DNA from: Eumeta japonica
Lineage: Eukaryota; Arthropoda; Insecta; Lepidoptera; Psychidae
Reading direction: 5' to 3'
DNA: 64,000 nt
NCBI GenBank assembly: GCA_005406025.1
Contig: BGZK01001414.1
Coordinates: 1 to 64,000, forward strand
Below, in pieces: positions 4,905 through 38,270 of the stretch. Every line of letters starts with the position of its first letter. Position 1 is the stretch's first letter. Below the pieces are notes generated by a model. That model saw only the letters and a list, made by a program, of their open reading frames with translations, was not told where the DNA came from and ran no database searches. Made by a program: the position numbers and the translations under genes.

Positions 4905-7900
4905 GGCGGCGCCTCGGCTGCCCAAAACCGTACTCACATGGCTGACGGCTTTGTGGGAAGTGAGGCTGACCACGCATCTCTGCGGTTCATTCAATCCAAC
5001 TGCAGCGGAGCAAGCTCGCTACGGCGAGCTGCTGGTTGGAGCGAGCAGGCGCAAGATTGCAGTGGCACTAGTCCAGGAGCCCTACGTGGGCTACTGGCGA
5101 GCTCAAGCGGTACCCGGCCAGGGTCATCCAACGGTGGCCCCGCGTGCCGGACCCGTAAAAGCCGCCATCCTAATCCTGGACAGTGACGTGGACGTCGAGG
5201 AAGATCAAACACTCATCGACGAAAACGTCACTGCTGCTGTAGTCACGGCCGGGCAGAATTGGCGTCGTGTCGGTCACTTCGAGTGCGACAAGCCGATCGG
5301 CCCATACCTCGACGCGCGTGAAGTGGGTCTGCTCGAAGCTCGGGACGAACAAAATCATCCTGGGGGCGACGTCGCATGGAGCGTGTGGTGGGCAGTGAGC
5401 GACGACGCGAGGGGAACAGAACTCTGCGACTTCCTCGACGTGGAGGGTTACATGTACTCAACGAAGGAATATCCCCACGTTCGAAGTATACAACCGTCTC
5501 TGCGAAGTACGGTGACGGTGGAGGCAGCTCCGCTCTACTGGATAGAGCGGAGGAATGGCAAGTGGTCCGAGGAGTAACATCCTCGGACCATAACGCAGTC
5601 ACGTTCAACGTACGCACCGGGGCGGTCCGGACCTGAACCTCCGGCATAACGAATCAAACACAGCGAAGGCTCGGTGGTCGGAGTTCCTAACAGCGTTTGA
5701 TAACGCGAAGGAAGAAAGGGCTCTGACTGCCGGGACGGTGGAGGTTGTAGACCGTGTGACCGACTCGACGAGGTCGTGGATCTGTACACCGCGTCAGCAC
5801 GCGTGCGACACTGCCATACCGCGAAAGCGCTCGATGCGAAGACCGAAGCCCCTTGGTGGAGTCCCGAACTAGAGGGTTGAAAAGGATGCGAACACCAAAA
5901 GCGTCGCATCCGAAACGCAGCCCCTAGCAGACGCCGGTATGTGGTCGAGGAATATGTGAGAGCCAAGGAGGTTTATGAACGGGCAGCGGATGCCCAGACG
6001 ACGAGCTGGAAACGGTTTTGCACCGCCCAGGACAGGGAGAGTATGGGATGGTATCTACAGGGTCATCAGGAACACTGGGAGAAACCGAGGATGTTTTACT
6101 TATCAACGACTCGGGCAGACGCAGCCCGAACGAGTCTGCCGTCCTCCTGGCGAATTCTGATGACCGTGTCGACACGGATGGTCCGTACCACACGGAACTA
6201 AGAAGACGAACCGACGGAAGTATCCGCCCGCCGGAGGTTTCGGATATCTTGTCCGAGATGGACCCGTCAGCTGAAATGGCCCTTAAGGCATTCAATCCCA
6301 AAAAGCCCTGGGATTGACGGGTTCACTTCGGATATATGCCAGGCTGCCCAGGGACCTGGGATTGTTCTAGCCATGGCGAACAAATGTTTGCAGCTGGGAT
6401 ACTTTCCCCGGCCTGGAAGGTAGCGACCATAAAGGTGATACCAGCCAGGTAAGGACGACTACTCCCGTCCAAAGTCTTACCGTCCCATAGGCCTTCTCCC
6501 GCTGAACCGTGGAAAATGCTCGTCTGGCGCATCCAATGGCATATAATGCCGAAGCTGCAGACGCGGGTATGGTTTCATGCCACAGCGGGACGGACTTTGT
6601 ACGATCTGATGACACACATCCATAATGAGTTAAATCAGAATTATTGTGATGGTGTCATTGGACATCGAGGGGCGACAACGCGTGGTGGCCGGCTTTTACG
6701 AAACCAACTGCTCGACAAAATAACTTTATTTAACGAGGATTTTGTTTGTTGTTCATCCTGGACGACCTCATTTGACCTGACCAGAATGGTCAAGAAAGAC
6801 CGGAGGCGGGAGAATCAGGCACTCAGCTCCATGTGAGGGACTGGGGCGATCGAAACAAGTTGAGGTTTGCACCATCGAAACCAACGCGATGGTGCTCACC
6901 AGAACTGAAGTTCGATGTCCCGGTCATTGCATGGGCAACACAGAAATTGCCCTTGTTGACGAGATCCGCCTCCTAGGTCTTACAATAGACAAGGGGCTGA
7001 ATTCCCCACGTAGCCAAGGCGTGCTGCCAGCATTTATGGCATAGCCAGGCGGCCAAGGCTACCTGGGGTTGAGTCCGATATCAGGACGATATACGTCGCC
7101 GCGATAGAGCCATACGCGCTTCGCGCTGGGCCCCGGCAACAAAAAAGCTCGGCGTGATGCTGGACGCGCTACAGCAGTGTAGCATTGAAAGCATGCCGAG
7201 AACGGTTCTCCATTCCGCGCTGATCCTCGCGAGGTTGCTCCCCTAGACATACGGGTGAGGGAAGCAGCCAGACTCTATGAGGTGAAGCGCGGAAGTGAAT
7301 CGGGGACGTCTGTGCGACCGGGAGCTCGAAGCCCGTGGACTTCCGCGAAATGCCGCATCCGCGCACACTCCCGAACTGGTTCGAGCGTTGAAGACCTGGA
7401 TCCATCAACAGTCGACCGTCTCATTGTCGGGCCGCACATATATACCGACGGCAGTAAGACCGAAGGTGCGCGGCCCCGACAGAGTGGCGGGACGAAATGA
7501 ACTGGAACTCCCACGTTCCGGCTCGAATCCTGCACGGCAGAGATGTTCGCGCTGCACAGGGCGATAAAGAGGGTCAAGGAAGGCAAGGATCGCTGGTCAA
7601 CATCTTCAGCGACTCAAAGTCGTCGCTGCAGATGTTGACCGCCCCAAAACCTACAACCCTCTGGCCCATGCAGCGCGCCAAGACATCAGGGATATCGTTG
7701 CGGAAGGCAGTGGCGCCTATTCTGCGCGTAAGGTCGCGGGAACCACAGCGTTGATGAGCCGCCAGAACGCCGCCCTGAAAAGAAAACGGCAGCGGATTAC
7801 GATCGCTATCCGCTGTCGTACGCCGTGATCAGGGCGGCGAGCCTGGACGAGTGGCAACAGCGTTACACCGAGGCACTGGTGAAATAAACCGCGCTTCTTC

Positions 7901-8160
7901 CCCGAGTGGAAGGGGCGTATAGGGTCCTCGCGATTCACGATCACGCCCCGATAGCGCAAACCCTAACGGGACACGGCGGATTCGCTCAGTACCTGAACAG
8001 GTTTAATGAAGGATTCGCCACCGCGTGCGCGCCCTGATAAGGTCCAAGATGTACTGCACGTTCTCGAAGAATGCCCATCCGGGAGAAGCGCAGACCGAGG
8101 CGGGCACCGCCGTAGTCGCGAGGCATGGTTTCCGGCCTCCTTGACGACGAAACAAATAGA
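4905..8160 (+). pseudogene. LINE C1 ORF2 (endonuclease/reverse transcriptase/RNase H) remnant
   Basis: ORF2 supplies the enzymes for target-primed reverse transcription. Recognisable pieces in order are: the endonuclease start 'LVQEPYVG' near 5071; 'DVDVEEDQTLIDENVTAAVV' near 5188; the endonuclease tail ending near the 'SSDHNAVTFNVRTG' segment at about 5578-5620; reverse transcriptase fragments ('RIQWHIMPKLQ' near 6527); the RNase H motif 'IYTDGSKTEG' near 7438; and a C-terminal 'HVLEECP' motif near 8058, which matches the Cys/His motif ending many R1-type ORF2 proteins. The polymerase active-site motif is not preserved in a readable frame. ORF2 stops soon after the Cys/His motif, with no room for a helicase. 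Confidence 0.8.
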
Positions 8161-8531
8161 AAACATTTTGGAATTTTGCGAGCGGGTCACGCGAAGGTGC
8201 AATAAAATGAACGGTCTAATATGGCATACAATGAATAAAATAAACACAAATGAGGACTTTAAACACGATAAATCAGACATAAATAAAATGCCAATGGTTG
8301 GAAGACAAAGACAAATAGTGCTAAATGTAATAAATATAACAGGAAAAGTAGAGATAAATATGTGGTATTATATAAAAATAAAAATAAAAATATATAAAAA
8401 AAAATAAAATAAAGAAAATAAAATAAAAATAAGGATCCCAAACAATCACCCTAAAGGCTGAATGAAAGTGGATAAGAACTGATAAAAGGTTGGTCGCCAA
8501 CATGGACAGGGGCAAAAGGATCAAAACAAAA
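8161..8531 (+). other. 3' untranslated region and A-rich tail of LINE C1
   Basis: AT-rich sequence with a long A-rich stretch (8376-8432), then about 90 bp ending 'caaaacaaaa' immediately before (CCTAA)n. This is the expected structure of a LINE 3' end at a telomeric target. Short open frames here look like shadows. Confidence 0.65.
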
Positions 8532-8590
8532 CCTAACCTAACCTTAACCTAACCTAACCTAACCTAACCTAACCTAACCCAATCCCAACC
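8532..8590. repeat. Telomeric repeat block (CCTAA)n between LINEs C1 and A1
   Basis: About ten CCTAA units with one variant (CCTTAA), decaying at the right edge into 'cccaatcccaaccc'. TTAGG/CCTAA is the ancestral insect telomere repeat. It sits exactly between the 3' tail of C1 and the 5' end of A1, as expected for telomere-targeted LINEs. Confidence 0.95.
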
Positions 8591-9670
8591 CAGTTACCTC
8601 TCAGGAGCCAACCAAGCAACACGCGTTCGTATCGCTCCGCGGATAAGCTATGTAAAATACAATTTCCGCGAAAATAAACTGTCCGACAACAGTGTAAAAG
8701 TGTGCAAGTTCTTAGTGATCGAATATCGGTGTCACCTGGTGAGAACCCGACGCTATCCTGGAAATTAAAATAAAGTTTTCGAAAGTGCCCAAAGTGAAAA
8801 ACCGTTCCGGATATCGGTAAAGTGTCGTGCTTAGTACACAATAAAGTGCACACCACAGGCCGCCACATATCCCTCAGGAACAACATAGCAGGAAGAACTC
8901 AGGAAACTAAATATTTCCCGGAAAGAAAAATAAAAATTTCTCATCTCATAAAGAAGACCCTATTCTTAACTTGTGACATATATCACACGGTGACCTAGTA
9001 GACATTGTCACCAAAGATTGGCTGAGTCAGTTAAATGTAAACAGGGCTTCATTTGAAAATAGAAACCGATATACATATCACCAAAACGCGCGAAAAACGA
9101 AAAAACCGAGACATAAAAATACAAAAACACGCTGAAAATAGGTGCGACCCCAAAAAATTTCCTCGCAGATCATAAAGTGCACAAATACGATAAGTGGACA
9201 GAACGGATTATATTCCAAAAATAGTGCTCTTTGTCAAAAAGAAGTTTTTCGAAAACACCTAAAGTCCTACAAATCAGAATAGGGTCCTAAAAGGTGAAAA
9301 ATAATTTCCCGCTGACAAAGCACCACATATCGCGGCCACGACCGAGCCAGTACACGTGCACTGAAAGTTGCAAATCTGCGTCATTGGGGACGGCGACCGC
9401 ATTCCTTAATAAGGCGACCTCTCGGAATTCGGTCAGAACGTGCGTCATTAGGCACGTGTACACGTGTTTACAAAGTATAACAAAATCGGACTAACAATAT
9501 AATAACCATTGCCTAAAAAATTTGGATCAACACTAACACCTAATAACAATAATAGATACGAAACGCAATAGTTGCAACTAACAAATGCTTGCTGTGCAGC
9601 AGTAAAGGTAACCACCATTACACACTCCCAAATTATTAAATAAATACTTAAATAAAATAAAAAAAAAAAA
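8591..9670 (+). promoter_or_regulatory. 5' untranslated region of LINE A1 (internal promoter expected)
   Basis: The element starts at 'cagttacctc' directly after telomere-like sequence; A2 starts at the same base after CCTAACC. LINEs carry an internal promoter at this end, but no specific element can be pointed to. A 66-codon open frame (9294-9494) also occurs in A2, but the copies are too similar for that to be evidence of coding. An A-rich run just before the ORF1 ATG at 9671 gives a favourable start context. Confidence 0.7.
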
Positions 9671-11679
9671 ATGTCGACAAAGAGTCAAAGCCGCATCGAA
9701 GAAGGCAGCATCTCACATCAAGAAGGCACAGAACCCCGGCTGAGAACTTTACAGTCGAGGATGGTGAAACGCCCATTGAGAGTGCAAACCGACTTGAGTG
9801 AAGCGGGAAGCGTAAAAGCGATCCCAACCCGCAAAACAGTACGCAGGTCGAACTCAGACGGTGCGCAACACAAAGTCCAAGAATGGGAGCAAGCAAGCTG
9901 CCCCTCGTCACCACAAGAAATAGAAGAAGGTTCGATTCCCTCCCCACCATCTCAGCAGCCCTCTGAAAGTAAAATAGAAGAGAGAAGGTTGAGCATGTTA
10001 CCGAGAACGAAAGGAAGGGGGCGGAGATGGACCTGGCGACTAGGAAGCAAACGAACTGCTTCTGAAAGGCAAAGAGGCCTGGAGAGTGCAGGCAACATGA
10101 AGCGAGTGCAAAGCATCGCAGCGAGTGCCTGCAATCACTCTACGAGATCGTGCTCGCTCTTTCGGACTCCCGTTCTAGACATAAATACAATCTAGAGGCC
10201 GAACGCACCAAACACGCACAAGAACTGGTGCGAATAGAAAGGCCCACAACAAAGATTTGACAAACGTCGTTAAAACGCTGACAGAAGAACTCAGCCAGGC
10301 GCGAAGACGTCCGAAAAAGTCTGGACGAAACAAAATCAATAAGGGACTGGCTGGGTTATGAAACAGAGGAAAGCAAGGAGACAAACAAAGACGTAAAGAA
10401 GCGACTACTAGATATAGAAACCTCCTAAGGGAAATAAAGATGGAGAAATCCAAAACGAAGTAGAGAGCGTCACACCGTCCACTAAGAAAATGGAAACAGA
10501 CATAAAGACGCTTTCGGCACAATTGGATGAACTCAGAACCAAATGGGGCTCTAAAGAATGAAACTAGCAAAACGCTTGAAACGTCGAACAAAACTCTCCA
10601 CGAAATAAAAACCTCCGAAACAACTGTCCGCAACGAAAAGGTAGAAGAACAACTAAAAGCCGTTCAATCGGTCGAAAATGTCAGCGAACGTCTTAACAGT
10701 GCCAGGGATCCAGTCGTGCAAATCGATCTGCATGAGCAATTGCAGCCGCTGCAAGAAAAATGGAGGCAATGTCATCAGCAATGAAGACAATGAGGGATAA
10801 AGAGCCCAGACACCGCCAACGCCGGGAAGGAATCTCGAAAGAGAACTGGCGGAAGCTCATAAAAGCTCACAAATCCCAAACCCTCATACGCAAGCGGCTG
10901 CGAAATCACCAACCCCACAACCGAATCACACGTTGATAGTCTCCTCAAAGGACAAAACCCATACGGGAGAACACGTCCTTCAAATAATTAGAGAGGCTAT
11001 CGACACAAAGAAATCAGGTGCGAAAGTGGAAAGGGTCCGAAAAGCCAGGAACCAAAAGGTGATACTGAAATGCAGCACGAAAGAGGACATGGAGGCCATC
11101 CAGAACAAAATGAGGTCCCGTAAAGAAATAAAAGTGGAAGCGGCCAAAGCGGCGAACCCCCTGCTCATCATGAAAGGGGTAATGGCCTACCATAAGGACG
11201 CGGACATTATTGAAAACGTTCTGGCTCAAAACAAGCACTTGGTTAAAGACATTAACTTAAAAGAAGTGACGATACGGGTCAGATACAGGAAGAGGGCACG
11301 CAACCAACTACAGTGCCACCCAGTACTAGAACTAAGCCCAAGTGTCCACAAAAGATTCCTAGAAGCAGGAAAATTGTATATCGACCTCCAAAAAGTCGCA
11401 GTGTACGACCAATCCCCCCTGGTCCAGTGTGCTAAATGCCTAGGTTTTGGGCACACAAAAGCTGTTTGCGGGGAAAAAACTGCGACATGTAGTTACTGCG
11501 CGGACAAAACTCATGAATGGGAAAAATGCCCGCGTAGAAAACAAAACGAGGAACCGAAATGCAAGAACTGCTGGGAGAACGGGATCAAAACTGAGGCCAA
11601 CCACGAGGCCTTTAGCAACAAATGCAAGGTGAGGCAGAAATGGGATGAAATAGCCCGATCGCGCATTGCCTATTGCTAA
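9671..11679 (+). CDS. LINE A1 ORF1: Gag-like RNA-binding protein (frame interrupted)
   Basis: ORF1 protein is expected to coat element RNA and, in telomere-specific LINEs, to help bring it to chromosome ends. The start is the ATG after an A-rich run, reading 'MSTKSQSR'. A long charged coiled-coil region (10200-10780) is rich in E, K and leucine heptads. The conserved C-terminal half is intact from 10933 to 11679: a Gag-like domain starting 'MIVSSKDKTHTGEHVL' and then three zinc knuckles near 11428-11635. The first is 'CAKCLGFGHTKAVC' (CX2CX4HX4C), the second 'CSYCADKTHEWEKC', and the third is the spaced set starting 'CKNCWENG'. It ends 'ARSRIAYC'. The N-terminal half is split by indels, several absent from A2. 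Confidence 0.9.
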
Positions 11680-11689
11680 GGGCAACGAC

Positions 11690-14600
11690 ATGGAAACCGG
11701 CGACGCTCCCACAGAAGTGGACACAAAAACGATTCTGATGATTCAAGCGAATCTCCAGAGATCCAAAGTAGCGACTGCAGAGTTACTCCAGCTGGCGACA
11801 GAGAAAGGGATATCGATAGCCTTGGTTCAGGAACCCTATGTAGGAAACCAAGGCATCCTAAAACAAAATCCCGGCACCAAAGTAATACAGTGCACTGTCG
11901 GCCGCCAGAAGCCAGTGAAAGCGGCGATAATTGTTTTCGGAGACAAAGTAGAGGTTTTACATGACCCACAACTAGTCACGGAAACCGAATCGGCCGTCCT
12001 ATTAAAAATAGGCAGAATGAAGCTGGGTATCATCTCGATCTACTTCGAAGGAGACGAGGACATCGAGCCATATATCATCAGAACGAAAAAGGCTTGCAAA
12101 AATCTGGGAACAGAAAATCTGATCATAGCTGGCGACATAAATGCGTGGAGCCACTGGTGGGGAAGCCAGAGAGAAGACAGGAGGGGCCAAGCTTACAGAG
12201 ATTTCTTGGACGAAATGGGCTTCCACATCCTCAACACAGGAAGCACTCCCACCTTCGAGACCTATAGGGGCGATAGAATCTGCAGTAGTATAGTAGACGT
12301 GACCACCCCTAATAGGTAGAGTCGAGAATGGAGAGTGGACAGAACGGCAACAACATCGGACCACAACGCGATCGTGTTCAACCTGCGTCTAAGCGGGCCC
12401 ATAAAACCCATGGAGCCGATAACCACGCGCAGATACAACACGAACAAAGCAGACTGGACTGAATTCTGTCTACAGCTCAGAAATACTCTTCAGAAGTACG
12501 GGATTGCCGAAAAGGTCGAACGAACGAAGAGACCTGAGGATTTGGAAGCGAACAGCAGAGAATACATAGCTGCTATCCAGGAAGTCTGTGAAGAAATATT
12601 TCCGAAGATAGGACAGAGGAAAACAAAGCGAATCCCCTGGTGGACAGCGGAACTAAGCGCTCTAAAAAAGACGTCTTGCGCAAAAGAGGAGAATCCGCAA
12701 CGCAGCCCCACGAGAAAAAGGCCGTAATCGAAGATTACCTTACGGCCAAGACGATATACACTCAGAAAGCCGAAATAGCACAGACAGAAAGCTGGAAAGA
12801 GTACTGCACGACCAGGACAAGGAAAGCATGTGGGACAAAGTATACAGAGTAATAAGGAATAAAAAGGTAGACTGCCAGACACATTGCTGAGAAACTCTGA
12901 GGGCAAAACACTGAGCCCACACGAATCGGCAAAACTTCTCGCGAACACATTTTACCCCGACGACTCTGTATCGACGGATATGCCATTCCACATCCGAACG
13001 AGAGAAAGGATAGAAGACAAACCTGTAGAAGACCTAAGACTGTCGAAAGATGATCCACCGTTCACGAGGGTGGAACTAAAGGCAGTCCTGAGAGAGTTAA
13101 ATCCGAAAAGGCTCCGGGACCAGACGGCCTGACGGCAGATATCTGCATAGCGGCGATAGAGAGCGAGATGGAAGTATTTCTAGCGATAGCCAATAAATGC
13201 CTGGAATTGGCTTACTTCCCACGCACTGGAAGACCGCACATGTCGTCATAATACCGAAACCTGGAAAGAGGATTACACCCTCCCTAAATCCTACAGGCCG
13301 ATAGGTCTACTACCGATCCCGGAAAGATAGTGGAAAAATTAATGATAGGCCGAATCCAATGGCACATGCTTCCTTCACTCAGTCCTAAGCAATACGGGTT
13401 CATGCCACAGCGAAGCACGGAAGATGCCCTCTACGACCTCGTTAATCATGTCAAAAGGAGATAGAAAGCAAAAAGCGGTACTCCTTATTTCACTTGATAT
13501 AGAGGGCGCCTTCGACAACGCATGGTGGCCAGCACTAAAACACAGCTCATCGACAAAAATGCCCGGGTAATCTATACCAAATGGCATGTTCGTACCTCAC
13601 AGAGCGGAAAATAACGGTCAATTACGCAAGAGAAACGGTCACAAAATCCACAAACAAAGGTTGTGTCCAAGGATCCATATGTGGACCGACCTTCTGGAAT
13701 ATAATCATCGACTCGCTTCTTCAAAGATTGACCGACGCAAAGGTACACTGTCAGGCATTTGCCGACGATGTAGTCCTCGCTTTCTCGAGTGAATCGAGCT
13801 CCACCATAGAAAACGCCGCCAACGAAGCTATGAAAATCGTCACAAAATGGGGTTCCGAAAATAAGCTGAATTTCGCACCACAAAAACACAAGCTATGGTG
13901 CTAACGAAAAGCTGAAATTTCAAAACCCACCATACAGATGGCGGGCTCCCAAATCAACCTAGTCGAAGAGATAAAGGTGCTCGGCCTAATAATAGACACG
14001 AGGCTAAACTTCCGGTCACATGTAGCGGCAGTCTGTAAAAGTCTATCGAAATCTACAAGCGACTAGCCTGCAGCGCAAAAGTAACATGGGGTCTGAACAG
14101 CGAAATAATAAGGATCATATACACAGCAGTGATCGAACCCATCATGATGTACGCATCGAACACATGGGCTCCGGCGACCGAGTTAGAAATGATCAGATCG
14201 GCTCTAAGCTCGCTTCAAAGAGGTTTTGCCATCAAGATCTGTAGAGCCTACAGAACGGTCTCACTCACCTCAGCCATGATCCTTGCAGGCTTACTTCCAC
14301 TGGACCTCAGGGGAGGCGGTACAAAGCAAAAAGGATTATCGATGGATATCTTCCACCAGGAAAGAGCTAGAAAAGGACATTGCAAACACTGAGAGGCCAC
14401 ACCCGCAAAAGCAATGTCCATAGAATACGAGCTCGTAGACGAATCGGATCCCGATCCCCTTGGAAAAATTGCCGGCCCGCAAATCTACACGGACGGCAGC
14501 AAAATTAACGGAAGGGTCGGAGCAGCGATCACCTGGTGGACGAACGATACAGAATCGGAATACCAAACTCTCAGTCTACATCCTTCATGCTCAGTATATC

Positions 14601-17600
14601 AAGCGGAAATGTACGCCCTGTATAGAGCAGTCGCAATGGTTAAAGCCAGTCGAGAGAAAGTGGTGAACATTTTGAGTGACTCTAGATCATCACTGGAACT
14701 CCTGAGCAACCCGAGAACGGGACATCCATTAGCACACGCAATAAGGAAAGTACAAGAAACGCTAACGCTGAAGGAAAAGAAATACGTTTCTACTGGCTGA
14801 GAGCACACGTGGGCATAAAGGGCAACGAAAGAGCAGATGAACTGGCAAAATCGCTGCCCAAAGGCTGATGCCGACTATGATTACGAGAAAATTCCCTATC
14901 CTGGGTAAAAGCAAGATAAGGAGGAGACGATTCTGAAATGGCAAACACGATACGACTCCTCCCAGACCGGTGCAATAACGAAAACATTCTTTCCTGACGC
15001 AAAGAAAGCATACGCAACGATCAGGAAATTGAAGCCAACACCGGTCCAGACACAAATATTCACAGGACACACGGGAATAGCGGAGTACCTGCACAGATTC
15101 AAACTCTTACAGAGCCCGAGTTGCGAGTGCGACGCCGATAAAATCGAATCAGTATGGCACATAATCCTTGAATGCCCCAGGTATGAAGTTGCACGCTACG
15201 ATCTCGAACACAAAATCGAGACAAAGCTGGAAAACAAAAATGCACGAAATAATGGAGAACCCCGAAAAAGAGTGGAATTCTTGTCATTCGCAGAGAAAGC
15301 CTTCCGGGAAGCCACATCCAGACATAGATCCATGAACCGAAAGCGCAATGAAGAAACACCTCCAACTGCGCCGACTTCAGCCCCAACACAAAAACCCCAA
15401 GAGAATCCCGAAAACGAAGCTACAACACTGCGCACGACGACAACGGAAAGAATGTTACGTTGCGCAGAAACAGCAGGAAAGCCTGGGATACGAACAAGGG
15501 GAGTGGCACTGTTCATGGACGAAAACACGGAAAGGCTAGGAATAGGCTTTGGAAGCCCATGGGGAAAGAGCAGCGTTTCACTTTCGCCAGGACTTGCCAA
15601 CCTCATAAACGGCAGTACCAGTAAAACCATCCTAAAAAGGAAAACCTTTGATTCGCTAGAACAACTAGTAATCGAAGGTGAATCCTGCAGAATGGTACGG
15701 ACCAGAAACAAGATCGTCCTACTATTCACATGGACCGAGGATACACCGTTTATCCAGGCAAGTAAAGTACTACATAAACTAAGCGAAAGTGAACAGGCAA
15801 CACCCGAGTGATAAGCATAGACTCTATGTCAGTCGGCTACGAAAAGGCAATGTCGAAGATTATCTCGGAAGCATAGCAGCCTCCGAGAAACACAAGATCG
15901 TAATGTATGAAGATCGAGGAGAAAATCTCAGTTTTCTTCACAAATACGATCCGGCATGCTCAACGACACCGATTGACAGCTGGGGACATCCTGTCAAGGA
16001 CCCAGAAGAAATGAGCGGCTCGGAGCGTCTCCGAAAGCAAATCAAGCTGAAAAGGAGACAAAACCGCGAAGCGAAAGAGCTAGCCCGCGAGCAACGCTCC
16101 GAGACCGGTAAAAACTGGAAAACTTCTTTCGTGCATTTAATGCAGGAATAGCCACAAAACTTAAGGCATTCACCAGCAAAAGCGAGTGTTCGACAACAGA
16201 GGACAAGGAAAAGCCTCGACATCTAAAAGATAACGAACGATTCACCAAAGTCTAGCCCGAAACCCACAAAGGCCGACCTAGGAGAAGTCAAACCTCCCGT
16301 CGTTATGCCTGTCGAGAATCCGAAAGACCACATGAGGAACGCCTTCCTCGAGTTCGCTGCACTAACAATAGCGATACAAGATGTCACCCAAACAATGTGT
16401 AAAACATTCTGAACATATACAAGAAAGGGGACATCGAACAGCTAAAACGAAAACTCGAGGAAAACGAAGGCACCATATACAACAATAAGTCGTCCCAATA
16501 TATACTCGGAGACGCAAGACAAAACATGACGGCCTACAATGTCACATGCGGACTCGTAGATCTCGACGAACAGGCAACGAAAACCACAGACAAGGCCAAA
16601 TACGAAACTCAGAAAACGATCCAATAGTGGTAATGACCAGAGACACAAAGGTAGCCTTGGAAGAAAGAATCCTGAGAACGATGAAAAACTTTCAAAGGAA
16701 AACGACCAAGACTACTCGGAAACATTTACCGACTGGGAAACACCGAAAATTACATGGATCAACGGAGTACCTGGATGTGGGAAAACAACGTGGATCGTTC
16801 AAGAATTTGACAAAAGGGATTGCATAGTCACCGCGACCATTGAAGCAGCAGAAGACCTAAAGCGAAAACTGGCCAACAGAATAGGAGCCGAAGCAACGAC
16901 CAGAGTGCGCACGATGGCTTCTGTATTAGTGAACGGGTTCAAAGAACACACACACAACCGTCTCCTAATCGACGAGGCTATGATGAACCACTTTGGCGCA
17001 ATAATAACGGCCGCTCTGCTGGCCAAGGCCAAGGAACTGCTGCTTATCGGCGACATAAATCAAATCCCTCACATAGACAGACACAATGTCTTTCCGATGA
17101 GCTATGAAAAGCCAAATGCTGTAGCAAAAGTCTCCCGAGAACTGCTACGATCTTACAGAAACCCCATGGATGTGGCATATGCCCTCAACGAAATTTATAG
17201 CGGCATATACTCCACACAGGAAGGGACCCGATCATTGACGTTGGATGGTTACGACAGAAACAAACTCTCCATATCACTACCTCAAACGCTCTACCTGGCC
17301 CACACAAGCTGGCAAAACAGAGCTAAAAGCCATGGGATGCGGACAAGGTAAAGAATCGAGAGTGTTAACTATCCATGAAGCGCAGGGTCTAGCCTCAAAA
17401 AATGTGGTAATAGTAAGAACAGCGTCGAAGAAAGCAGAAATTTACAACAGCATTCAACACGCGGTCGTAGCAATCACGCGTCACACAGAAAATTGTATTT
17501 ACCTTACGGTAAATTGCAGTGACGCGATAGGGAGACTCATACAAAGGGCTAACAATGCTACATCGGAACGAATAATAGAGTACAACGCCAAGATGGCAAT

Positions 17601-17667
17601 AAGATCCCGGGACATAAACTCGGTCAGAGAAATAACCAAATACCGAAGAAAGCCGGAACAGTACTGA
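11690..17667 (+). CDS. LINE A1 ORF2: endonuclease-RT-RNase H-helicase polyprotein (frame interrupted)
   Basis: This is the enzyme of target-primed reverse transcription. Its ATG lies 11 bases after the ORF1 stop in another frame. Domains in order, numbered by nominal codon: APE-type endonuclease (about 15-230; 'QEPYVGN', 'AGDINAWSHWWGS', 'TSDHNAIVF'); reverse transcriptase (about 400-850; 'RIQWHMLPSL', 'AFADDVVLAF' with the catalytic DD at 13764-13769); RNase H (about 930-1060; 'IYTDGSK', 'LSDSRSSLELL'); a Cys/His motif near 15122 ('CECDADKIESVWHIILECP'); an unrecognised domain (about 1270-1490); and an SF1 helicase (about 1640-1990). R1-type ORF2 proteins normally end after the Cys/His motif. 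The frame is broken by scattered one- and two-base indels, so the polyprotein is inferred from aligned pieces and from A2 and A3. Confidence 0.92.
15490..16155 (+). other. Unrecognised domain between RNase H/Cys-His region and helicase in LINE A1
   Basis: After a P/T-rich spacer (15348-15450) ORF2 continues with about 220 residues I cannot assign. The segment opens 'GVALFMDENTERLGIGFGSP', includes 'LVIEGESCRMVRTRNKIVLL' and 'HKIVMYEDRGENLSFLHKYD', and ends in a basic, helical stretch. The alternation of short hydrophobic and charged runs suggests a folded alpha/beta domain. The same segment exists in A2 (25033-25686) but is missing from A3, which has a deletion there. It could be a further viral segment acquired with the helicase, a LINE-specific domain, or diverged cellular sequence. 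Confidence 0.7.
16600..17620 (+). other. SF1 viral-type RNA helicase domain in LINE A1 ORF2
   Basis: All the motifs expected of a superfamily 1 helicase of the alphavirus/tobamovirus kind are present in order: Walker A 'GVPGCGKTT' (16764-16790); Walker B/DExx 'IDEAMM' (near 16968); 'LLIGDINQI' (near 17039); 'SYRNPMDVAYALN' (near 17152); 'TIHEAQGLASKNVVIVRT' (near 17368); and 'VAITRHT' (17466-17486). Such helicases use NTP to unwind RNA during viral genome replication. Here the domain ends ORF2 of a retrotransposon, just before the stop and 3' untranslated region. A small indel upstream of Walker A and a frame change near 17340 interrupt the reading in this copy. Function in the LINE is unknown; helping strand separation during reverse transcription, or interfering with small-RNA silencing, are speculations. 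Confidence 0.9.
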
Positions 17668-18073
17668 CCGGGTAAATAAAACACCGGATCAAAGCAAAGA
17701 AAGGCGTTAATTTAGAAACGAAGCGGACAAAAAAATGGCGTTCCACACACAATGACATCCCAATGCGCGGTGTCAGAGCGGACGGGTTGCCCGCTCCCTC
17801 TAAAATGGTTGAGCTGGACAATGGCTGACCGTCCTGTCGTACTCGTGAACGGGTGCCGTGCAACAGGGACAAGGACCGCCATCACGAAGGAAACAGTGTT
17901 AAAACAATAAACAAATAAAATTTAATAAAGTGAAAGACATTAAATAACTGTGAGAGTGACAGAAAAGTGGTTGCAAAACAGTACAGCAAGTAAACTAACA
18001 CAAAAGTGACAAATGAACAATGCCAGTAACAAAGGTGCGGAACATAAGAGTCTGCAGAATGTAATGTAAAAAA
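17668..18073 (+). other. 3' untranslated region and poly(A) of LINE A1
   Basis: About 390 bp of non-coding sequence containing 'aataaaatttaataaag' (near 17913) and ending 'gtctgcagaatgtaatgt' plus six or so A residues, followed at once by CCTAACC. In telomere-specific LINEs the 3' untranslated region is recognised by the reverse transcriptase, so its conservation in A2 is expected. Confidence 0.8.
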
Positions 18074-18110
18074 CCTAACCTAACCTAACCTAACCTAACC
18101 TAACCTAACC
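18074..18110. repeat. Telomeric repeat block (CCTAA)n between LINEs A1 and A2
   Basis: Seven full units plus CC separate the A tail of A1 from the first base of A2 ('cagttacctc'). The block is only 37 bp long, so A2 and A1 are close to back-to-back insertions in the same telomere repeat, or products of a duplication. Confidence 0.97.
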
Positions 18111-19195
18111 CAGTTACCTCAGGAGCCAACCAAGCAACACGCGTTCGTATCGCTCTCCGCGATAAGCTATGTAAAATACAATTTCCCGCGAAATTAAACT
18201 GTCCGACAACAGTGTAAAGTGTGCAAGTGTCTTAGTGATCGAATATCGGTGTCAACTGGTGAGAACCCGACGCTATCCTGGAAATTAAAATAAAGTTTTC
18301 GAAAGTGCCCAAAGAGAAAAACCGTTCCGGATATCGGTAAAGTGTCGTGCTTAGTACACAATAAAGTGCACACCACAGGCTGCCACATATCCCTCAGGAA
18401 CAACATAACAGGAAGAACTCAGGAAACTAAATATTTCCCGGAAAGAAAAATAAAAATTTCTCATCTCATAAAGAAGACCCCTATTCTTAACTTAAGTGAC
18501 ATATATCACACGGTGACCTAGTAGACATTTGTCACCAAAGATTGGCTGAGTCAGAAGTTAAATGTAAACAGGGCTTAATTTGAAAATAGAAACCGATATA
18601 CATATCACCAAAACGCGCGAAAAACGAAAAAACCGAGACATAAAAATACAAAAACACGCTGAAAATAGGTGCGACCCCAAAAAATTTCCTCGCAGATCAT
18701 AAAGTGCACAAATACGATAAGTGGACAGAACGGATTATATTCCAAAAATAGTGCTCTTTGTCAAAAAGAAGTTTTTCGAAAACACCTAAAGTCCTACAAA
18801 TCAGAATAGGGTCCTAAAAGGTGAAAAATAATTTCCCGCTGACAAAGCACCACATATCGCGGCCACGACCGAGCCAGTACACGTGCACTGAAAGTTGCAA
18901 ATCTGCGTCATTGGGGACGGCGACCGCATTCCTTAATAAGGCGACCTCTCGGAATTCGGTCAGAACGTGCGTCATTAGGCACGTGTACACGTGTTTACAA
19001 AGTCTAACAAAATCGGACTAACAATATAATAACCATTGCCTAAAAAATTTGGATCAACACTAACACCTAATAACAATAATAGATACGAAACGCAATAGTT
19101 GCAACTAACAAATCTGCTTGCTGTGCAGTAAAGGTAACCACCATTACACACTCACAATTAAATAAATACTTAAATAAAATAAAAAATAAAAAAAA
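18111..19195 (+). promoter_or_regulatory. 5' untranslated region of LINE A2
   Basis: Begins 'cagttacctcaggagccaac' immediately after CCTAACC and runs to an A-rich stretch before the ORF1 ATG at 19196. It matches A1 almost base for base. No promoter element is identifiable by eye. Confidence 0.7.
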
Positions 19196-21202
19196 ATGTC
19201 GACAAAGAGTCAAAGCCGCACCGAAGAAGTTGCAGCATCTCACATCAAGAAGGCACAAACCCCGGCTGAGAACTTTACAGTCGAGGATGGTGAAACGCCC
19301 ATTGAGAGTGCAAACCGACTTGAGTGAAGCGGGAAGCGTAAAAGCGATCCCAACCCGCAAAACAGTACGCAGGTCGAACTCAGACGGTGCGCAACACAAA
19401 AGTCAAAGAATGGGAGCAAGCAAGCTGCCCCTCGTCACCACAAGAAATAGAAGAAGGTTCGATTCTCCCCACCATCTCAGCCCTCTCTGAAAGTAAAATA
19501 GAAGAGAAGGTTGAGCATGTTACCGAGAACGAAAAAGGAAGGGGCGGAGATGGACCTGGCGACTAGGGAAGCAAACGAACTGCTTCTGAAAGGCAAAGAG
19601 GCCCTGGAGTGCAGGCAATATGAAGCGAGAGTGCAAAGCATCGCAGCGGAGTGCCTGCAATCTACGAGATCGTGCTCGCTCTTTCGGACTCCCGTTCTGA
19701 CATAAATACAATCTAGAGGCCGAACGCACCAAACACGCACAAGAACTGGTGCGAATAGAAAGGGCCCACAACAAAGATTTGACAAATGTTGTTAAAACGC
19801 TGACAGAAGAACTCAGCCAGGCGCGAGAAGACGTCCGAAAAAGTCTGGACGAAACAAAATCAATAAGGGACTGGCTGGGTTATGAAACTGAGGAAAACAA
19901 GGAGACAAACAAAGACGTAAAGAAGCGACTACTAGATATAGAAACCTCTCTAAGAGAAATAAAGATGGAGAAATCCAAAACGAAGGTAGAGAGCGTCACA
20001 CCGTCCACTAAGAAAATGGAAACAGACATAAAGACGCTTTCGGCACAATTGGAGGAACTCCGAACCAAATGGGGGGCTCTAAAGAATGAAACTAGCAAAA
20101 CGCTTGAAACGTCGAACAAAACGCTCCATGAAATTAAAAACCTCCCGAAACAACTGTCCGCGAACGAAAAGGTAGAAGAACAACTAAAAGCCGTTCAATC
20201 GGCAGTCGAAAATGTCAGCGAACGTCTTAACAGTGCCAGGGATCCAGTCGTGCAAATCGATCTGCATGAGCAATTGCAGCCGCTGCAAGAAAAATGGAGG
20301 CAATGTCATCAGCAATGAAGACAATGAGGGATAAAGAGCCCAGACACCGCCAACGCCGGGAAGGAATCTCGAAAGAGAACTGGCGGAAGCTCATACAAAT
20401 CCCAAACCCTCATACGCAGAAGCGGCTGCGAAATCACCAACCCCACAACCGAATCACACGTTGATAGTCTCCTCAAAGGACAAAACCCATACGGGAGAAC
20501 ACGTCCTTCAAATAATTAGAGAGGCTATCGACACAAAGAAATCAGGTGCGAAAGTGGAAAGGGTCCGAAAAGCCAGGAACCAAAAGGTGATACTGAAATG
20601 CAGCACGAAAGAGGACATGGAGGCCATCCAGAACAAAATGAGGTCCCGTAAAGAAATAAAAGTGGAAGCGGCCAAAGCGGCGAACCCCCTGCTCATCATG
20701 AAAGGGGTAATGGCCTACCACAAGGACGCGGACATTATTGAAAACGTTCTGGCTCAAAACAAGCACTTGGTTAAAGACATTAACTTAAAAGAAGTGACGA
20801 TACGGGTCAGATATAGGAAGAGGGCACGCAACCAACTACAGTGCCACCCAGTACTAGAACTAAGCCCAAGTGTCCACAAAGATTCCTAGAAGCAGGAAAA
20901 TTGTATATCGACCTCCAAAAAGTCGCAGTATACGACCAATCCCCTCTGGTCCAGTGTGCTAAATGCCTAGGTTTGGGCACACAAAGCTGTTTGCGGGAAA
21001 AACTGCGACATGTAGTTACTGCGCGGACAAAACTCATGAATGGGAAAAATGCCCGCGTAGAAAACAAAACGAGGAACCGAAATGCAAGAACTGCTGGGAG
21101 AACGGGATCAAAACTGAGGCCAACCACGAGGCCTTTAGCAACAAATGCAAGGTGAGGCAGAAATGGGATGAAATAGCCCGATCGCGCATTGCCTATTGCT
21201 AA
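19196..21202 (+). CDS. LINE A2 ORF1: Gag-like protein (frame interrupted)
   Basis: The start is 'MSTKSQSRTEE', the same ATG as A1. This copy preserves the coiled-coil region in one long open stretch (19749-20318), with repeated E/K/L heptads and 'LEELRTKWGALKNETSKTLE'. The Gag-like domain (20461-20889) and three zinc knuckles (20941-21160) follow, ending 'ARSRIAYC' and a TAA. One-base losses near 20877 and around the first zinc knuckle (20970-21000) break the frame where A1 is intact; conversely A1 is broken where this copy is open. Taken together the copies support an ORF1 of about 670 residues. Confidence 0.9.
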
Positions 21203-21212
21203 GGGCAACGAC

Positions 21213-24200
21213 ATGGAAACCGGCGACGCTCCCACAGAAGTGGACACAAAACGATTCTGATGATTCAAGCGAATCTCCAGAGATCCAAAGTAGCGACTGC
21301 AGAGTTACTCCAGCTGGCGACAGAGAAAGGGATATCGATAGCCTTGGTTCAGGAACCCTATGTAGGAAACCAAGGCATCCTAAAACAAAATCCCGGCACC
21401 AAAGTAATACAGTGCACTGTCGGCCGCCAGAAGCCAGTGAAAGCGGCGATAATTGTTTTCGGAGACAAAGTAGAGGTTTTACATGACCCACAACTAGTCA
21501 CGGAAACCGAATCGGCCGTCCTATTAAAATAGGCAGAATGAAGCTGGGTATCATCTCGATCTACTTCGAAGGAGACGAGGACATCGAGCCATATATCATC
21601 AGAACGAAAAGGCTTGCAAAATCTGGGAACAGAAAATCTGATCATAGCTGGCGACATAAATGCGTGGAGCCACTGGTGGGAAGCCAGAGAGAAGACAGGA
21701 GGGGCCAAGCTTACAGAGATTTCTTGGACGAAATGGGCTTCCACATCCTCAACACAGGAAGCACTCCCACCTTCGAGACCTATAGGGGCGATAGAATCTG
21801 CAGTAGTATAGTAGACGTGACCGCATGCAGTTCACCCCTAATAGGTAGAGTCGAGAATTGGAGAGTGGACAGAACGGCAACAACATCGGACCACAACGCG
21901 ATCGTGTTCAACCTGCGTCTAAGCGGGCCCATAAAACCCATGGAGCCGATAACCACGCGCAGATACAACACGAACAAAGCAGACTGGACTGAATTCTGTC
22001 TACAGCTCAGAAATACTCTTCAGAAGTACGGGATTGCCGAAAGGTCGAACGAACGAAGAGACCTGAGGATTTGGAAGCGAACAGCAGAGAATACATAGCT
22101 GCTATCCAGGAAGTCTGTGAAGAAATATTTCCGAAGATAGGACAGAGGAAAACAAAAGCGAATCCCCCCTGGTGGACAGCGGAACTAAGCGCTCTAAAAA
22201 AAGACGTCTTGCGCAAAAAGAGGAGAATCCGCAACGCAGCCCCCACGAGAAAAAAGGCCGTAATCGAAGATTACCTTACGGCCAAGACGATATACACTCA
22301 GAAAGCCGAAATAGCACAGACAGAAAGCTGGAAAGAGTACTGCACGACCCAGGACAAGGAAAGCATGTGGGACAAAGTATACAGAGTAATAAGGAATAAA
22401 AAAGGTAGACTGCCAGACACATTGCTGAGAAACTCTGAGGGCAAAACACTGAGCCCACACGAATCGGCAAAACTTCTCGCGAACACATTTTACCCCGACG
22501 ACTCTGTATCGACGGATATGCCATTCCACATCCGAACGAGAGAAAGGATAGAAGACAAACCTGTAGAAGACCTAAGACTGTCGAAAGATGATCCACCGTT
22601 CACGAGGGTGGAACTAAAGGCAGTCCTGAGAGAATTAAATCCGAAAAAGGCTCCGGGACCAGACGGCCTGACGGCAGATATTTGCATAGCGGCGATAGAG
22701 AGCGAGATGGAAGTATTTCTAGCGATAGCCAATAAATGCCTGGAATTGGCTTACTTCCCACGCACTGGAAGACCGCACATGTCGTCATAATACCGAAACC
22801 TGGAAAGAGGATTACACCCTCCCTAAATCCTACAGGCCGATAGGTCTACTACCGATCCCGGAAAGATAGTGGAAAAATTAATGATAGGCCGAATCCAATG
22901 GCACATGCTTCCTTCACTCAGTCCTAAGCAATACGGGTTCATGCCACAGCGAAGCACGGAAGATGCCCTCTACGACCTCGTTAATCATGTCAAAAGGAGA
23001 TAGAAAGCAAAAGCGGTACTCCTTATTTCACTTGATATAGAGGGCGCCTTCGACAACGCATGGTGGCCAGCACTAAAACACAGCTCATCGACAAAAAATG
23101 CCCGGGTAATCTATACCAAATGGCATGTTCGTACCTCACAGAGCGGAAAATAACGGTCAATTACGCAAGAGAAACGGTCACAAAATCCACAAACAAAGGT
23201 TGTGTCCAAGGATCCATATGTGGACCGACCTTCTGGAATATAATCATCGACTCGCTTCTTCAAAGACTGACCGACGCAAAGGTACACTGTCAGGCATTTG
23301 CCGACGATGTAGTCCTCGCTTTCTCGAGTGAATCGAGCTCCACCATAGAAAACGCCGCCAACGAAGCTATGAAAATCGTCACAAAATGGGGTTCCGAAAA
23401 TAAGCTGAACTTCGCACCACAAAAAACACAAGCTATGGTGCTAACGAAAAAGCTGAAATTTCAAAACCCCACCATACAGATGGCGGGCTCCCAAATCAAC
23501 CTAGTCGAAGAGATAAAGGTGCTCGGCCTAATAATAGACACGAGGCTAAACTTCCGGTCACATGTAGCGGCAGTCTGTAAAAAGTCTATCGAAATCTACA
23601 AGCGACTAGCCTGCAGCGCAAAAGTAACATGGGGTCTGAACAGCGAAATAATAAGGATCATATACACAGCAGTGATCGAACCCATCATGATGTACGCATC
23701 GAACACATGGGCTCCGGCGACCGAGTTAGAAATGATCAGATCGGCTCTAAGCTCGCTTCAAAGAGGTTTTGCCATCAAGATCTGTAGAGCCTACAGAACG
23801 GTCTCACTCACCTCAGCTATGATCCTTGCAGGCTTACTTCCACTGGACCTCAGAATACGGGAAGCGGAGGCGCTGTACAAAGCAAAAAAAAAGGATTATC
23901 GATGGACTATCTTCCACCAGGAAAAGAGCTAGAAAAGGACATTGCAAACACTGAGAGGCCACACCCCGCAAAAGCAATGTCCATAGAATACGAGCTCGTA
24001 GACGAATCGGATCCCGATCCCCTTGGAAAAATTGCCGGCCCGCAAATCTACACGGACGGCAGCAAAATTAACGGAAGGGTCGGAGCAGCGATCACCTGGT
24101 GGACGAACGATACAGAATCGGAATACCAAACTCTCAGTCTACATCCTTCATGCTCAGTATATCAAGCGGAAATGTACGCCCTGTATAGAGCAGTCGCAAT

Positions 24201-27200
24201 GGTTAAAGCCAGTCGAGAGAAAGTGGTGAACATTTTGAGTGACTCTAGATCATCACTGGAACTCCTGAGCAACCCGAGAACGGGACATCCATTAGCACAC
24301 GCAATAAGGGAAACTACAAGAAACGCTAACGCTGAAGGAAAAGAAATACGTTTCTACTGGCTGAGAGCACACGTGGGCACAAAGGGCAACGAAAGAGCAG
24401 ATGAACTGGCAAAAATCGCTGCCCAAAAGGCTGATGCCGACTATGATTACGAGAAAATTCCCCTATCCTGGGTAAAAAAGCAAGATAAGGGAGGAGACGA
24501 TTCTGAAATGGCAAACACGATACGACTCCTCCCAGACCGGTGCAATAACGAAAACATTCTTTCCTGACGCAAAGAAAGCATACGCAACGATCAGGAAATT
24601 GAAGCCAACACCGGTCCAGACACAAATATTCACAGGACACACGGGAATAGCGGAGTACCTGCACAGATTCAAACTCTTACAGAGCCCGAGTTGCGAGTGC
24701 GACGCCGATAAAATCGAATCAGTATGGCACATAATCCTTGAATGCCCCAGGTATGAAGTTGCACGCTACGATCTCGAACACAAAATCGAGACAAAGCTGG
24801 AAAAACCAAAAATGCACGAAATAATGGAGAACCCCGAAAAAAGAGTGGAATTCTTGTCATTCGCAGAGAAAGCCTTCCGGGAAGCCACATCCAGACATAG
24901 ATCCATGAACCGAAAGCGCAATGAAGAAACACCTCCAACTGCGCCGACTTCAGCCCCAACACAAAAACCCCAAGAGAATCCCGAAAACGAAGCTACAACA
25001 CTGCGCACGACGACAACGGAAAGAATGTTACGTTGCGCAGAAACAGCAGGAAAGCCTGGGATACGAACAAGGGAGTGGCACTGTTCATGGACGAAAACAC
25101 GGAAAGGCTAGGAATAGGCTTTGGAAGCCCATGGGGAAAGAGCAGCGTTTCACTTTCGCCAGGACTTGCCAACCTCATAAACGGCAGTACCAGTAAAACC
25201 ATCCTAAAAAGGAAAACCTTTGATTCGCTAGAACAACTAGTAATCGAAGGTGAATCCTGCAGAATGGTACGGACCAGAAACAAGATCGTCCTACTATTCA
25301 CATGGACCGAGGATACACCGTTTATCCAGGCAAGTAAAGTACTACATAAACTAAGCGAAAGTGAACAGGCAACACCCCGAGTGATAAGCATAGACTCTAT
25401 GTCAGTCGGCTACGAAAAAGGCAATGTCGAAGATTATCTTGGAAGCATAGCAGCCTCCGAGAAACACAAGATCGTAATGTATGAAGATCGAGGAGAAAAT
25501 CTCAGTTTTCTTCACAAATACGATCCGGCATGCTCAACGACACCGATTGACAGCTGGGGACATCCTGTCAAGGACCCAGAAGAAATGAGCGGCTCGGAGC
25601 GTCTCCGAAAGCAAATCCAAGCTGAAAAGGAGACAAAACCGCGAAGCGAAAGAGCTAGCCCGCGAGCAACGCTCCGAGACCGGTAAAAAACTGGAAAACT
25701 TCTTTCGTGCATTTAATGCAGGAATAGCCACAAAACTTAAGGCATTCACCAGCAAAAAGCGAGTGTTCGACAACAGAGGACAAGGAAAAGCCTCGACATC
25801 TAAAAGATAACGAACGATTCACCAAAGTCTAGCCCGAAACCCACAAAGGCCGACCTAGGAGAAGTCAAACCTCCCGTCGTTATGCCTGTCGAGAATCCGA
25901 AAGACCACATGAGGAACGCCTTCCTCGAGTTCGCTGCACTAACAATAGCGATACAAGATGTCACCCAAACAATGTAAAAACATTCTGAACATATACAAGA
26001 AAGGGGACATCGAACAGCTAAAACGAAAACTCGAGGAAAACGAAGGCACCATATACAACAATAAGTCGTCCCAATATACTCGGAGACGCAAGACAAAATG
26101 GGCGGCCTACAATGACACATGCGGACTCGTATATCTCGACGAACAGGCAACGAAAATCACAGGCAAGGCCAAATATGAAACTCCAGAAAACGATCCAATA
26201 GTGGTAATGACCAGAGACACAAAGGTAGCCTTGGAAGAAAGAATCCTGAGAACGATGAGAAAACTTTCAAAGGAAAACGACCAAGACTACTCGGAAACAT
26301 TTACCGACTGGGAAACACCGAAAATTACATGGATCAACGGAGTACCTGGATGTGGGAAAACAACGTGGATCGTTCAAGAATTTGACAATAAAAGGGATTG
26401 CATAGTCACCGCGACCATTGAAGCAGCAGAAGACCTAAAGCGAAAACTGGCCAACAGAATAGGAGCCGAAGCAACGACCAGAGTGCGCACGATGGCTTCT
26501 GTATTAGTGAACGGGTTCAAAGAACACACACACAACCGTCTCCTAATCGACGAGGCTATGATGAACCACTTTGGCGCAATAATAACGGCCGCTCCTGGCC
26601 AAGGCCAAGGAACTGCTGCTTATCGGCGACATAAATCAAATCCCTCACATAGACAGACACAATGTCTTTCCGATGAGCTATGAAAAGCCAAATGCTGTAG
26701 CAAAGTCTCCCGAGAACTGCTACGATCTTACAGAAACCCCATGGATGTGGCATATGCCCTCAACGAAATTTATAGCGGCATATACTCCACACAGGAAGGG
26801 ACCCGATCATTGACGATGGATGGTTACGACAGAAACAAACTCTCCATATCACTACCTCAAACGCTCTACCTGGCCCACACAAGCTGGCAAAACAGAGCTA
26901 AAAGCCATGGGATGCGGACAAGGTAAAGAATCGAGAGTGTTAACTATCCATGAAGCGCAGGGTCTAGCCTCAAAAAATGTGGTAATAGTAAGAACAGCGT
27001 CGAAGAAAGCAGAAATTTACAACAGCATTCAACACGCGGTCGTAGCAATCACGCGTCACACAGAAAATTGTATTTACCTTACGGTAAATTGCAGTGACGC
27101 GATAGGGAGACTCATACAAAGGGCTAACAATGCTACATCGGAACGAATAATAGAGTACAACGCCAAGATGGCAATAAGATCCCGGGACATAAACTCGGTC

Positions 27201-27242
27201 AGAGAAATAACCAAACACCGAAGAAAGCCGGAACAGTACTGA
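21213..27242 (+). CDS. LINE A2 ORF2: endonuclease-RT-RNase H-helicase polyprotein (frame interrupted)
   Basis: Same domain order as in A1. Endonuclease 21260-21910 ('QEPYVGN' near 21351, 'TSDHNAIVF' near 21886). Reverse transcriptase about 22560-23900: finger motif 'KKAPGPDGLTADIC' near 22643, 'IEGAFDNAWW' near 23037, 'KGCVQGSICGPTFWN' near 23196, catalytic 'FADD' at 23297-23308. RNase H 24046-24430 with 'YTDGSK', 'LSDSRSS' and 'GNERADELAKIAAQ'. Cys/His motif near 24693. Unrecognised domain 25060-25690. Helicase 26200-27170. The nominal length is about 2,010 codons. Frame changes fall near 21530, 22790-23060, 23930, 24570, 25030, 25690-25830 and 26595-26705, many at homopolymers. Confidence 0.92.
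25033..25686 (+). other. Unrecognised pre-helicase domain in LINE A2
   Basis: A 217-codon open stretch after the P/T-rich spacer holds the segment described for A1 without interruption: 'MDENTERLGIGFGSPWGKSS', 'SLEQLVIEGESCRMVRTRNK', 'SIDSMSVGYEKGNVEDYLGS' and 'MYEDRGENLSFLHKYDPACS'. I recognise no family. It is followed by a basic linker and then the helicase. Confidence 0.7.
25958..27242 (+). other. SF1 viral-type RNA helicase domain in LINE A2 ORF2
   Basis: Open from 25958 to 26683 through Walker A ('GVPGCGKTT', 26339-26365), a segment starting 'TATIEAAEDLKRKL', and the DExx motif ('IDEAMM', near 26547). A two-base loss near 26594 ('gctcctggcc' where A1 has 'gctctgctggcc') and a one-base loss near 26704 then shift the frame. 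Motifs IV-VI ('YRNPMDVAYALN', 'TIHEAQG', 'VAITRHT') continue in other frames to the stop at 27242. About 120 residues before Walker A ('NILNIYKKGDIEQLKRKLEE' onward) look like an N-terminal helicase extension. Confidence 0.88.
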
Positions 27243-27660
27243 CCGGGTAAATAAAACACCGGATCAAAGCAAAGAAAGGCGTCAATTTAGAAACGAAGCG
27301 GACAAAAAAAATGGCGTTCCACACACATGACATCCCAATGCGCGGTGTCAGAGCGGACGGGTGCCCGGCTCTAAAATGGTTGAGCTGGACAATGGCTGAC
27401 CGTCCTGTCGTACTCGTGAACGGGTGCCGTGCAACAGGGACCAGGACCGCCATCACGAAGGAAACAGTGTTAAAACGATAAACAAATAAAATTTAATAAA
27501 GTGAAAGACTAATTAATTAACTGTGAGAGTGACAGAAAAGTGGCTGCAAAACAGTACAGCAAGTAAACTAACACAAAAGTGACAAATGAACAATGCCAGT
27601 AACAAAGGTGCGGAACATAAGAGTCTGCAGAATGTAATGTAAAAATAAAAAAAAAAAAAA
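27243..27660 (+). other. 3' untranslated region and poly(A) of LINE A2
   Basis: Matches the A1 tail and ends 'gtctgcagaatgtaatgt' followed by a 20-base A-rich tail interrupted by one T, then CCTAACC. The longer tail compared with A1 argues that the two copies arose by separate retrotransposition events rather than by simple duplication, if the tail lengths are real. Confidence 0.8.
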
Positions 27661-27737
27661 CCTAACCTAACCTAACCTAACCTAACCTAACCTAACCTAA
27701 CCTAACCTAACCTAACCTAACCTAACCTAACCTAACC
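27661..27737. repeat. Telomeric repeat block (CCTAA)n, the longest in the window
   Basis: Fifteen uninterrupted CCTAA units plus CC (77 bp) between the poly(A) of A2 and AT-rich DNA that begins 'gatttttattttgcac'. The perfect repeats suggest recent telomerase synthesis or recent exposure at the chromosome end. It marks the 5' boundary of LINE B. Confidence 0.98.
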
Positions 27738-33489: not shown

Positions 33490-33547
33490 ATGCAAGGTAA
33501 GGCAGAAATGGGATGAAATAGCCCGATCGCGCATTGCCTATTACTAA
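33490..33547 (+). pseudogene. 3' end of LINE A3 ORF1
   Basis: Only the C-terminal ~18 codons remain, with 'VRQKWDEIARSRIAYY' and a TAA at 33545-33547. The final Cys of A1 and A2 is Tyr here. The ORF2 ATG follows 11 bases later, preserving the A-family spacing. Confidence 0.85.
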
Positions 33548-33557
33548 AGGTAACGAC

Positions 33558-38260: not shown

Positions 38261-38270
38261 GATGTCTCGT

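Follow-up and report, generated by a model that had tools for sequence, protein, structure and literature searches.

A viral-type SF1 helicase at the end of ORF2 in a telomeric TRAS retrotransposon of the bagworm moth Eumeta japonica

Helicase-bearing long interspersed nuclear elements (LINEs) of the TRAS type have already been published for Lepidoptera (Lazareva et al. 2015, PMC4686597; Morozov et al. 2017). These elements belong to the R1/TRAS clade, and their second open reading frame (ORF2) encodes an endonuclease, a reverse transcriptase (RT), a spacer of more than 300 residues and a C-terminal viral superfamily 1 (SF1) helicase. The same features were found in a 64,000-nucleotide stretch of contig BGZK01001414.1 (the window) from the bagworm moth Eumeta japonica (Lepidoptera: Psychidae; genome 701.7 Mb). 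An initial annotation, made from the letters of the window alone, had proposed a viral-type helicase fused to the end of the ORF2 of a telomeric LINE and had pointed to an earlier report, of about 2015, of such a helicase in insect R1 LINEs; that report exists and is PMC4686597. The Eumeta copies differ from the published elements in sitting in telomeric repeats, and what had been called an "unrelated spacer" is interpreted here, in part, as the N-terminal domain of the helicase plus a second folded domain. Neither the word Psychidae nor Eumeta occurs in the main texts of Lazareva et al. 2015 and Morozov et al. 2017. The fusion is real and of a known kind; what is new is the host family, as judged from these two main texts, the genomic location and the larger block.

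Three further systems are close. TRAS1 of Bombyx mori shares the endonuclease family, the (CCTAA)n target, a 5' flank ending in CC, the orientation and the poly(A) end, but no helicase-bearing LINE was found in B. mori (PMC4686597) and the block is missing from the Bombyx protein P0163. The replicase helicase of tomato mosaic virus (ToMV; PDB 3vkw/3wrx) resembles the Eumeta domain in sequence profile and in fold, including the N-terminal domain, although it is part of a viral replicase without RT and is only 21-25% identical in structural alignments. Jockey LINEs of Hemiptera and Orthoptera (Morozov et al. 2017) also carry a viral SF1 helicase, but they belong to another LINE clade, have the helicase in ORF1 and, according to the authors, form a separate branch in their tree.

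Helicase domain at the end of ORF2

Two near-identical full-length elements, copy A (8591..18071, from CAGTTACCT to the poly(A)) and copy B (18111..27658), lie head to tail, with (AACCT)n tracts on either side of each (8530..8579, 18072..18110 and 27659..27737). All LINE parts and telomeric tracts described here are on the forward strand. The order in both copies is endonuclease, RT, RNase H, spacer and viral-type SF1 helicase. In copy A the 3' part of ORF1, with CCHC-like zinc knuckles, was placed by eye at 10801..11676 and matched no Pfam family. The endonuclease (11738..12316; PF14529, 1.4e-13) is of the TRAS apurinic/apyrimidinic type: the TRAS1 endonuclease was the nearest solved structure, and the segment 11654-12316 matched TRAS1 ORF2p (1wdu) at E=1.7e-43 compared to 1e-7 for R1Bm. 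RT (13135..14039, in broken frames) and RNase H (approximately 14480..14870) were located by tblastn, with PF00078 and PF00075 matches in copy B at 23036-23929 and 23788-24564, and are of the R1 clade type by Pfam, tblastn and an RT tree. The intact relative P0044 aligned in pieces and in order from residue 3 to 2013 of 2022 (tblastn), in agreement with the initial placement of all three domains upstream on the same strand.

The SF1 helicase core of copy A was found at 16725..17634, as annotated and with the expected motif order; it had to be corrected in that it reads in two frames. One frame (16560-17348) carries Walker A, DEA, GDINQ and YRNPMDV, the other (17239-17664, stop codon 17665-17667) carries HEAQG and ITRH. 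The profile check proposed with the annotation gave 67.7 and 37.9 bits for PF01443 (Viral_helicase1; cut-off 21; E=1.7e-18 and 2.3e-9). The domain lies C-terminal to RNase H beyond a spacer, the arrangement of an SF1 helicase LINE, and directly before the 3' untranslated region (UTR; 17668..18071 with poly(A)), whose poly(A) adjoins (CCTAA)n. In copy B, N-terminal domain and core together occupy 25973..27209. The helicase piece of the window was 99% identical to the E. japonica protein P0001, in line with a lepidopteran host.

The nature of the helicase was assessed by profile, solved structure and fold, and these comparisons support a viral-type (tobamovirus/alphavirus-like) SF1 helicase with viral members as the nearest. 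P0044 scored 114.8 bits for Viral_helicase1 against 37.5 for AAA_19 and 33.9 for AAA_30; AAA_11 gave no row at E<=0.1 (Pfam). ToMV was far ahead of Upf1-like helicases in both sequence and fold comparison. Derivation from a cellular SF1 gene (Upf1/RecD/Pif1-like) instead of a virus is hence very improbable, and the preference for a viral over an Upf1-like domain in the initial annotation was upheld. No protein named as belonging to a eukaryotic RNA virus was among the 53 matches of the long-query search, all 53 of which carry PF01443, and a search of IMG/VR with conserved peptides returned no relative. A Walker A pattern in the same quest for viral sequences gave 42 loci, which were left out of the analysis.

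Between copies A and B there are 78 substitutions (0.83%) and 94 indels, of which 88 are not multiples of three and 46 lie within homopolymers of three or more. Since indels outnumber substitutions, assembly error and not decay appears to be the cause, which suggests that the frameshifts of the window are assembly errors that would account for the broken frames. The many indels could also be taken to mean that the fusion itself is an assembly artefact, or that the helicase is a chance neighbour. This is extremely unlikely: the same order is present in A and B, many contigs have helicase copies that share one 3' UTR, and intact homologues with the fusion in a single open frame occur in many other Lepidoptera. 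In 51 of 53 relatives in the full-length range a single open frame contains both the helicase and an RT xADD motif; P0065, which begins at RNase H, and P0082 have no RT motif.

Telomeric insertion and a dispersed lineage

Copies A and B are flanked by AACC|CAGTT... at the 5' end and by ...poly(A)|CCTAACC at the 3' end, where the exact junction base may shift by one C at the 5' end and by A at the 3' end. According to PMC7265360, TRAS elements insert into the CCTAA strand between C and T, lie in sense on that strand and have a poly(A) 3' end. Site, sense relative to the (CCTAA)n strand and poly(A) of the Eumeta copies all agree with this. A search for the three-unit telomeric repeat with at most one mismatch gave 26 matches, and none in shuffled sequences.

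A helicase query gave 159 matching pieces in the Eumeta genome, with arrays at 9.3-9.7 kb spacing on contigs C2601 and C2542. The telomere counts cover 42 fetched stretches, mostly from the upper part of this list, together with copies A and B; L052, which duplicates L091, was excluded. The end of the 3' UTR was reached by 34 of the 43 copies and not by nine (L068, L070, L073, L076, L079, L082, L087, L088 and L089). L085 ends at the contig end, leaving 33 testable 3' ends, and 30 of these had sense CCTAACC within 70 nucleotides (exceptions L071, L074 and L086). Seven CCTAACC and three GGTTAGG were counted in the 207,812 bases that these loci and the dispersed ones described below contribute outside the junction zones. 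The LINE is a telomere-specific TRAS element, here located in chromosome-end repeats, and "telomeric" in the initial annotation was correct.

In five loci (L059, L062, L075, L081 and L090) the 5' end of another family seemed by eye to follow the telomeric tract; telomeric arrays may mix several telomere-targeting families. The pairs L070/L082 and L073/L088 depart from the common 3' UTR at position 383-384, with a distinct tail within each pair, and are perhaps subfamilies with other 3' ends.

Eight weaker copies (45-55% identity to the query) had no match to the 3' UTR of the telomeric lineage, and no telomeric repeat followed any of the eight within about 1.8 kb. They are taken as LINEs from 3' sequence that several were seen by eye to share, the RT part lying outside the stretches fetched. 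Telomeric copies are mostly near-identical and dispersed copies are not. In a helicase tree (84 rows, quick method, LG+G4, no bootstrap) 16 telomeric and seven dispersed rows fell on opposite sides of a branch with an SH-aLRT of 100 (99 for the dispersed fork as drawn). Among the rows labelled telomeric, L079 lacks a testable 3' end, and L108, with five stops, was left out of the dispersed rows. Two more Eumeta rows, L070 and L074, in neither labelled group, fell within the telomeric clade. Elements of other species were found on both sides, and the deepest forks were weak.

In PMC6338049, which cites Kondo 2017 and Geisler 2018, helicase-bearing copies were stated not to be near telomeric repeats, and helicase-TRAS copies were proposed to have become specialised for host antiviral defence, no longer serving telomeres (Morozov et al. 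2019). The dispersed Eumeta lineage, without telomeric flanks, would fit such a specialisation. The premise of the proposal, that such copies are missing near (TTAGG)n, is contradicted by the young lineage with its 30 of 33 telomeric junctions and head-to-tail arrays on C2601 and C2542, so that the statement does not hold for Eumeta and the proposal is improbable here. No later report of helicase-TRAS elements at telomeres, or on Eumeta retrotransposons, was found in the open-licence literature. In the passages searched of PMC10088271, on TRAS in telomeres, the word "helicase" appears once, in a MOV10L1 reference, and it does not appear in those of PMC13338207 and PMC12036569.

Acquired block and neighbouring sequence

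The helicase appears to be part of a larger acquired block than published, in which a linker joins an accessory folded domain to the N-terminal domain and core of a complete SF1 helicase. The N-terminal domain of copy A was placed by eye at approximately 16290..16724 from the relative P0065, in which the fold match starts about 150 residues before Walker A. The accessory domain, weakly macrodomain-like, was placed by eye at approximately 15500..15950 from its counterpart in copy B. It had no Pfam match in the window or in P0065 and P0082, and the Macro family gave none for these two proteins at E<=10, most matches above about 0.1 being filtered out. Accessory domain, N-terminal domain and helicase co-occur in the proteins compared.

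Presence of the helicase was mapped on an RT tree of 128 rows (quick method), in effect unrooted because the chimaeric row P0049 takes the midpoint. The label required five changes, of which three are forced. P0057, with helicase, grouped by RT among rows without it, and P0099, P0100 and P0101, without helicase, grouped among bearers. A single gain may nevertheless be accommodated, the tree being compatible with it. Probably, the ORF2 of a TRAS-group LINE gained a C-terminal block of about 800 residues, complete helicase included, once or a few times. A more specific history is put forward only tentatively: an ancestral telomeric LINE might have captured one uninterrupted segment of a viral replicase, from a macro-like X domain through the helicase N-terminal domain to the helicase core, and kept it together while the Lepidoptera radiated, with one branch in telomeres, perhaps lengthening them, and another dispersed.

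Element D (5023..8529), a TRAS-like LINE without helicase match, adjoins the telomeric tract 5' of copy A with its 3' end. Copy C (33486..38257) is an older fragment, 90.7-92.7% identical to A and B, that ends within the helicase, and the YRNPxDV, HEAQG and TRH motifs and the 3' UTR are missing. Of the "three copies of two ages" annotated initially, A and B have the whole domain and C is indeed older, but C is cut within it. Fragments of other TRAS-like LINEs flank C on both sides (31233-33472 and 38271-41926), and its borders (33485-33486 and 38257-38271) are abrupt switches within coding sequence, which could stem from misassembly, from recombination or from the insertion of one element into another. 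Close to where the window begins, a tandem array with a 146-base unit (324-800; 3.3 copies) was observed, and 61177-61827 on the reverse strand gave a weak ADH_N match (22.4 bits; Pfam cut-off 23.5).

Possible role of the helicase

The helicase probably acts in cis in reverse transcription, to which we give a probability of about 0.6. The endonuclease would nick the TTAGG strand, where RT would prime. Held in cis within the ORF2 ribonucleoprotein during target-primed reverse transcription, the helicase could unwind structure in the template RNA, the RNA:DNA hybrid or the target duplex ahead of synthesis, and this unwinding would favour long full-length copies of about 9.5 kb.

The main rival explanation is that the helicase mainly counters RNA silencing and so protects the element from piRNA/siRNA control, as Lazareva et al. 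2015 proposed. The helicase domain of a Plutella LINE was reported to complement a plant virus deficient in its suppressor and to have a weak suppressing effect on silencing in plants (PMC4686597, PMC5563155), and a role that does not depend on the target agrees with the helicase being found in telomeric and dispersed lineages alike. However, the published effect is weak and was obtained in a plant system, and the nucleotide-binding and unwinding motifs, unneeded for RNA binding alone, are largely kept in the 53 relatives. Silencing suppression is possible, though the less likely of the two. For action in cis as well, retention by the dispersed sister lineage means that the role is probably general, in retrotransposition or escape from silencing, and not in telomere targeting.

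Selection on the helicase was estimated from the copies. Copy A compared to four open dispersed copies had a nonsynonymous divergence (dN) of 0.37-0.39 with synonymous divergence (dS) saturated, and the pooled ratio of nonsynonymous to synonymous polymorphism (pN/pS) among dispersed copies was 0.41. The helicase is thus constrained in the long term, and young copies look near neutral. The initial suggestion that the domain was kept because it helps the element is supported only in the sense of purifying selection.

Several observations weigh against action in cis. RT and helicase are in different frames in the assembly of the window, where frames are broken. By pattern, HEAQG is absent from 7 of 53 relatives and YRxPxDV from 5. 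Pooled pN/pS among 19 copies of the young lineage was 0.58, weak or absent selection, with single pairs at 0.97 (L067), 1.06 (L072) and 1.22 (L059 and L061); this is as expected for decaying copies. The block was present in 55 and absent in 68 of 123 TRAS-like proteins among the matches listed (best 120 of 934 related proteins, with 7984 candidates scored), and is therefore not needed for such LINEs generally. Together with element D, these proteins show that telomeric insertion as such can do without the helicase.

A virus-type helicase within a young LINE of the telomeric repeats removes a premise of the antiviral-specialisation hypothesis. The larger block, with the N-terminal domain and possibly a macro-like domain, provides a new handle on the so-called unrelated spacer. 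The finding makes it possible to ask whether, in moths, a captured viral helicase contributes to target-primed reverse transcription or to the maintenance of telomeres.
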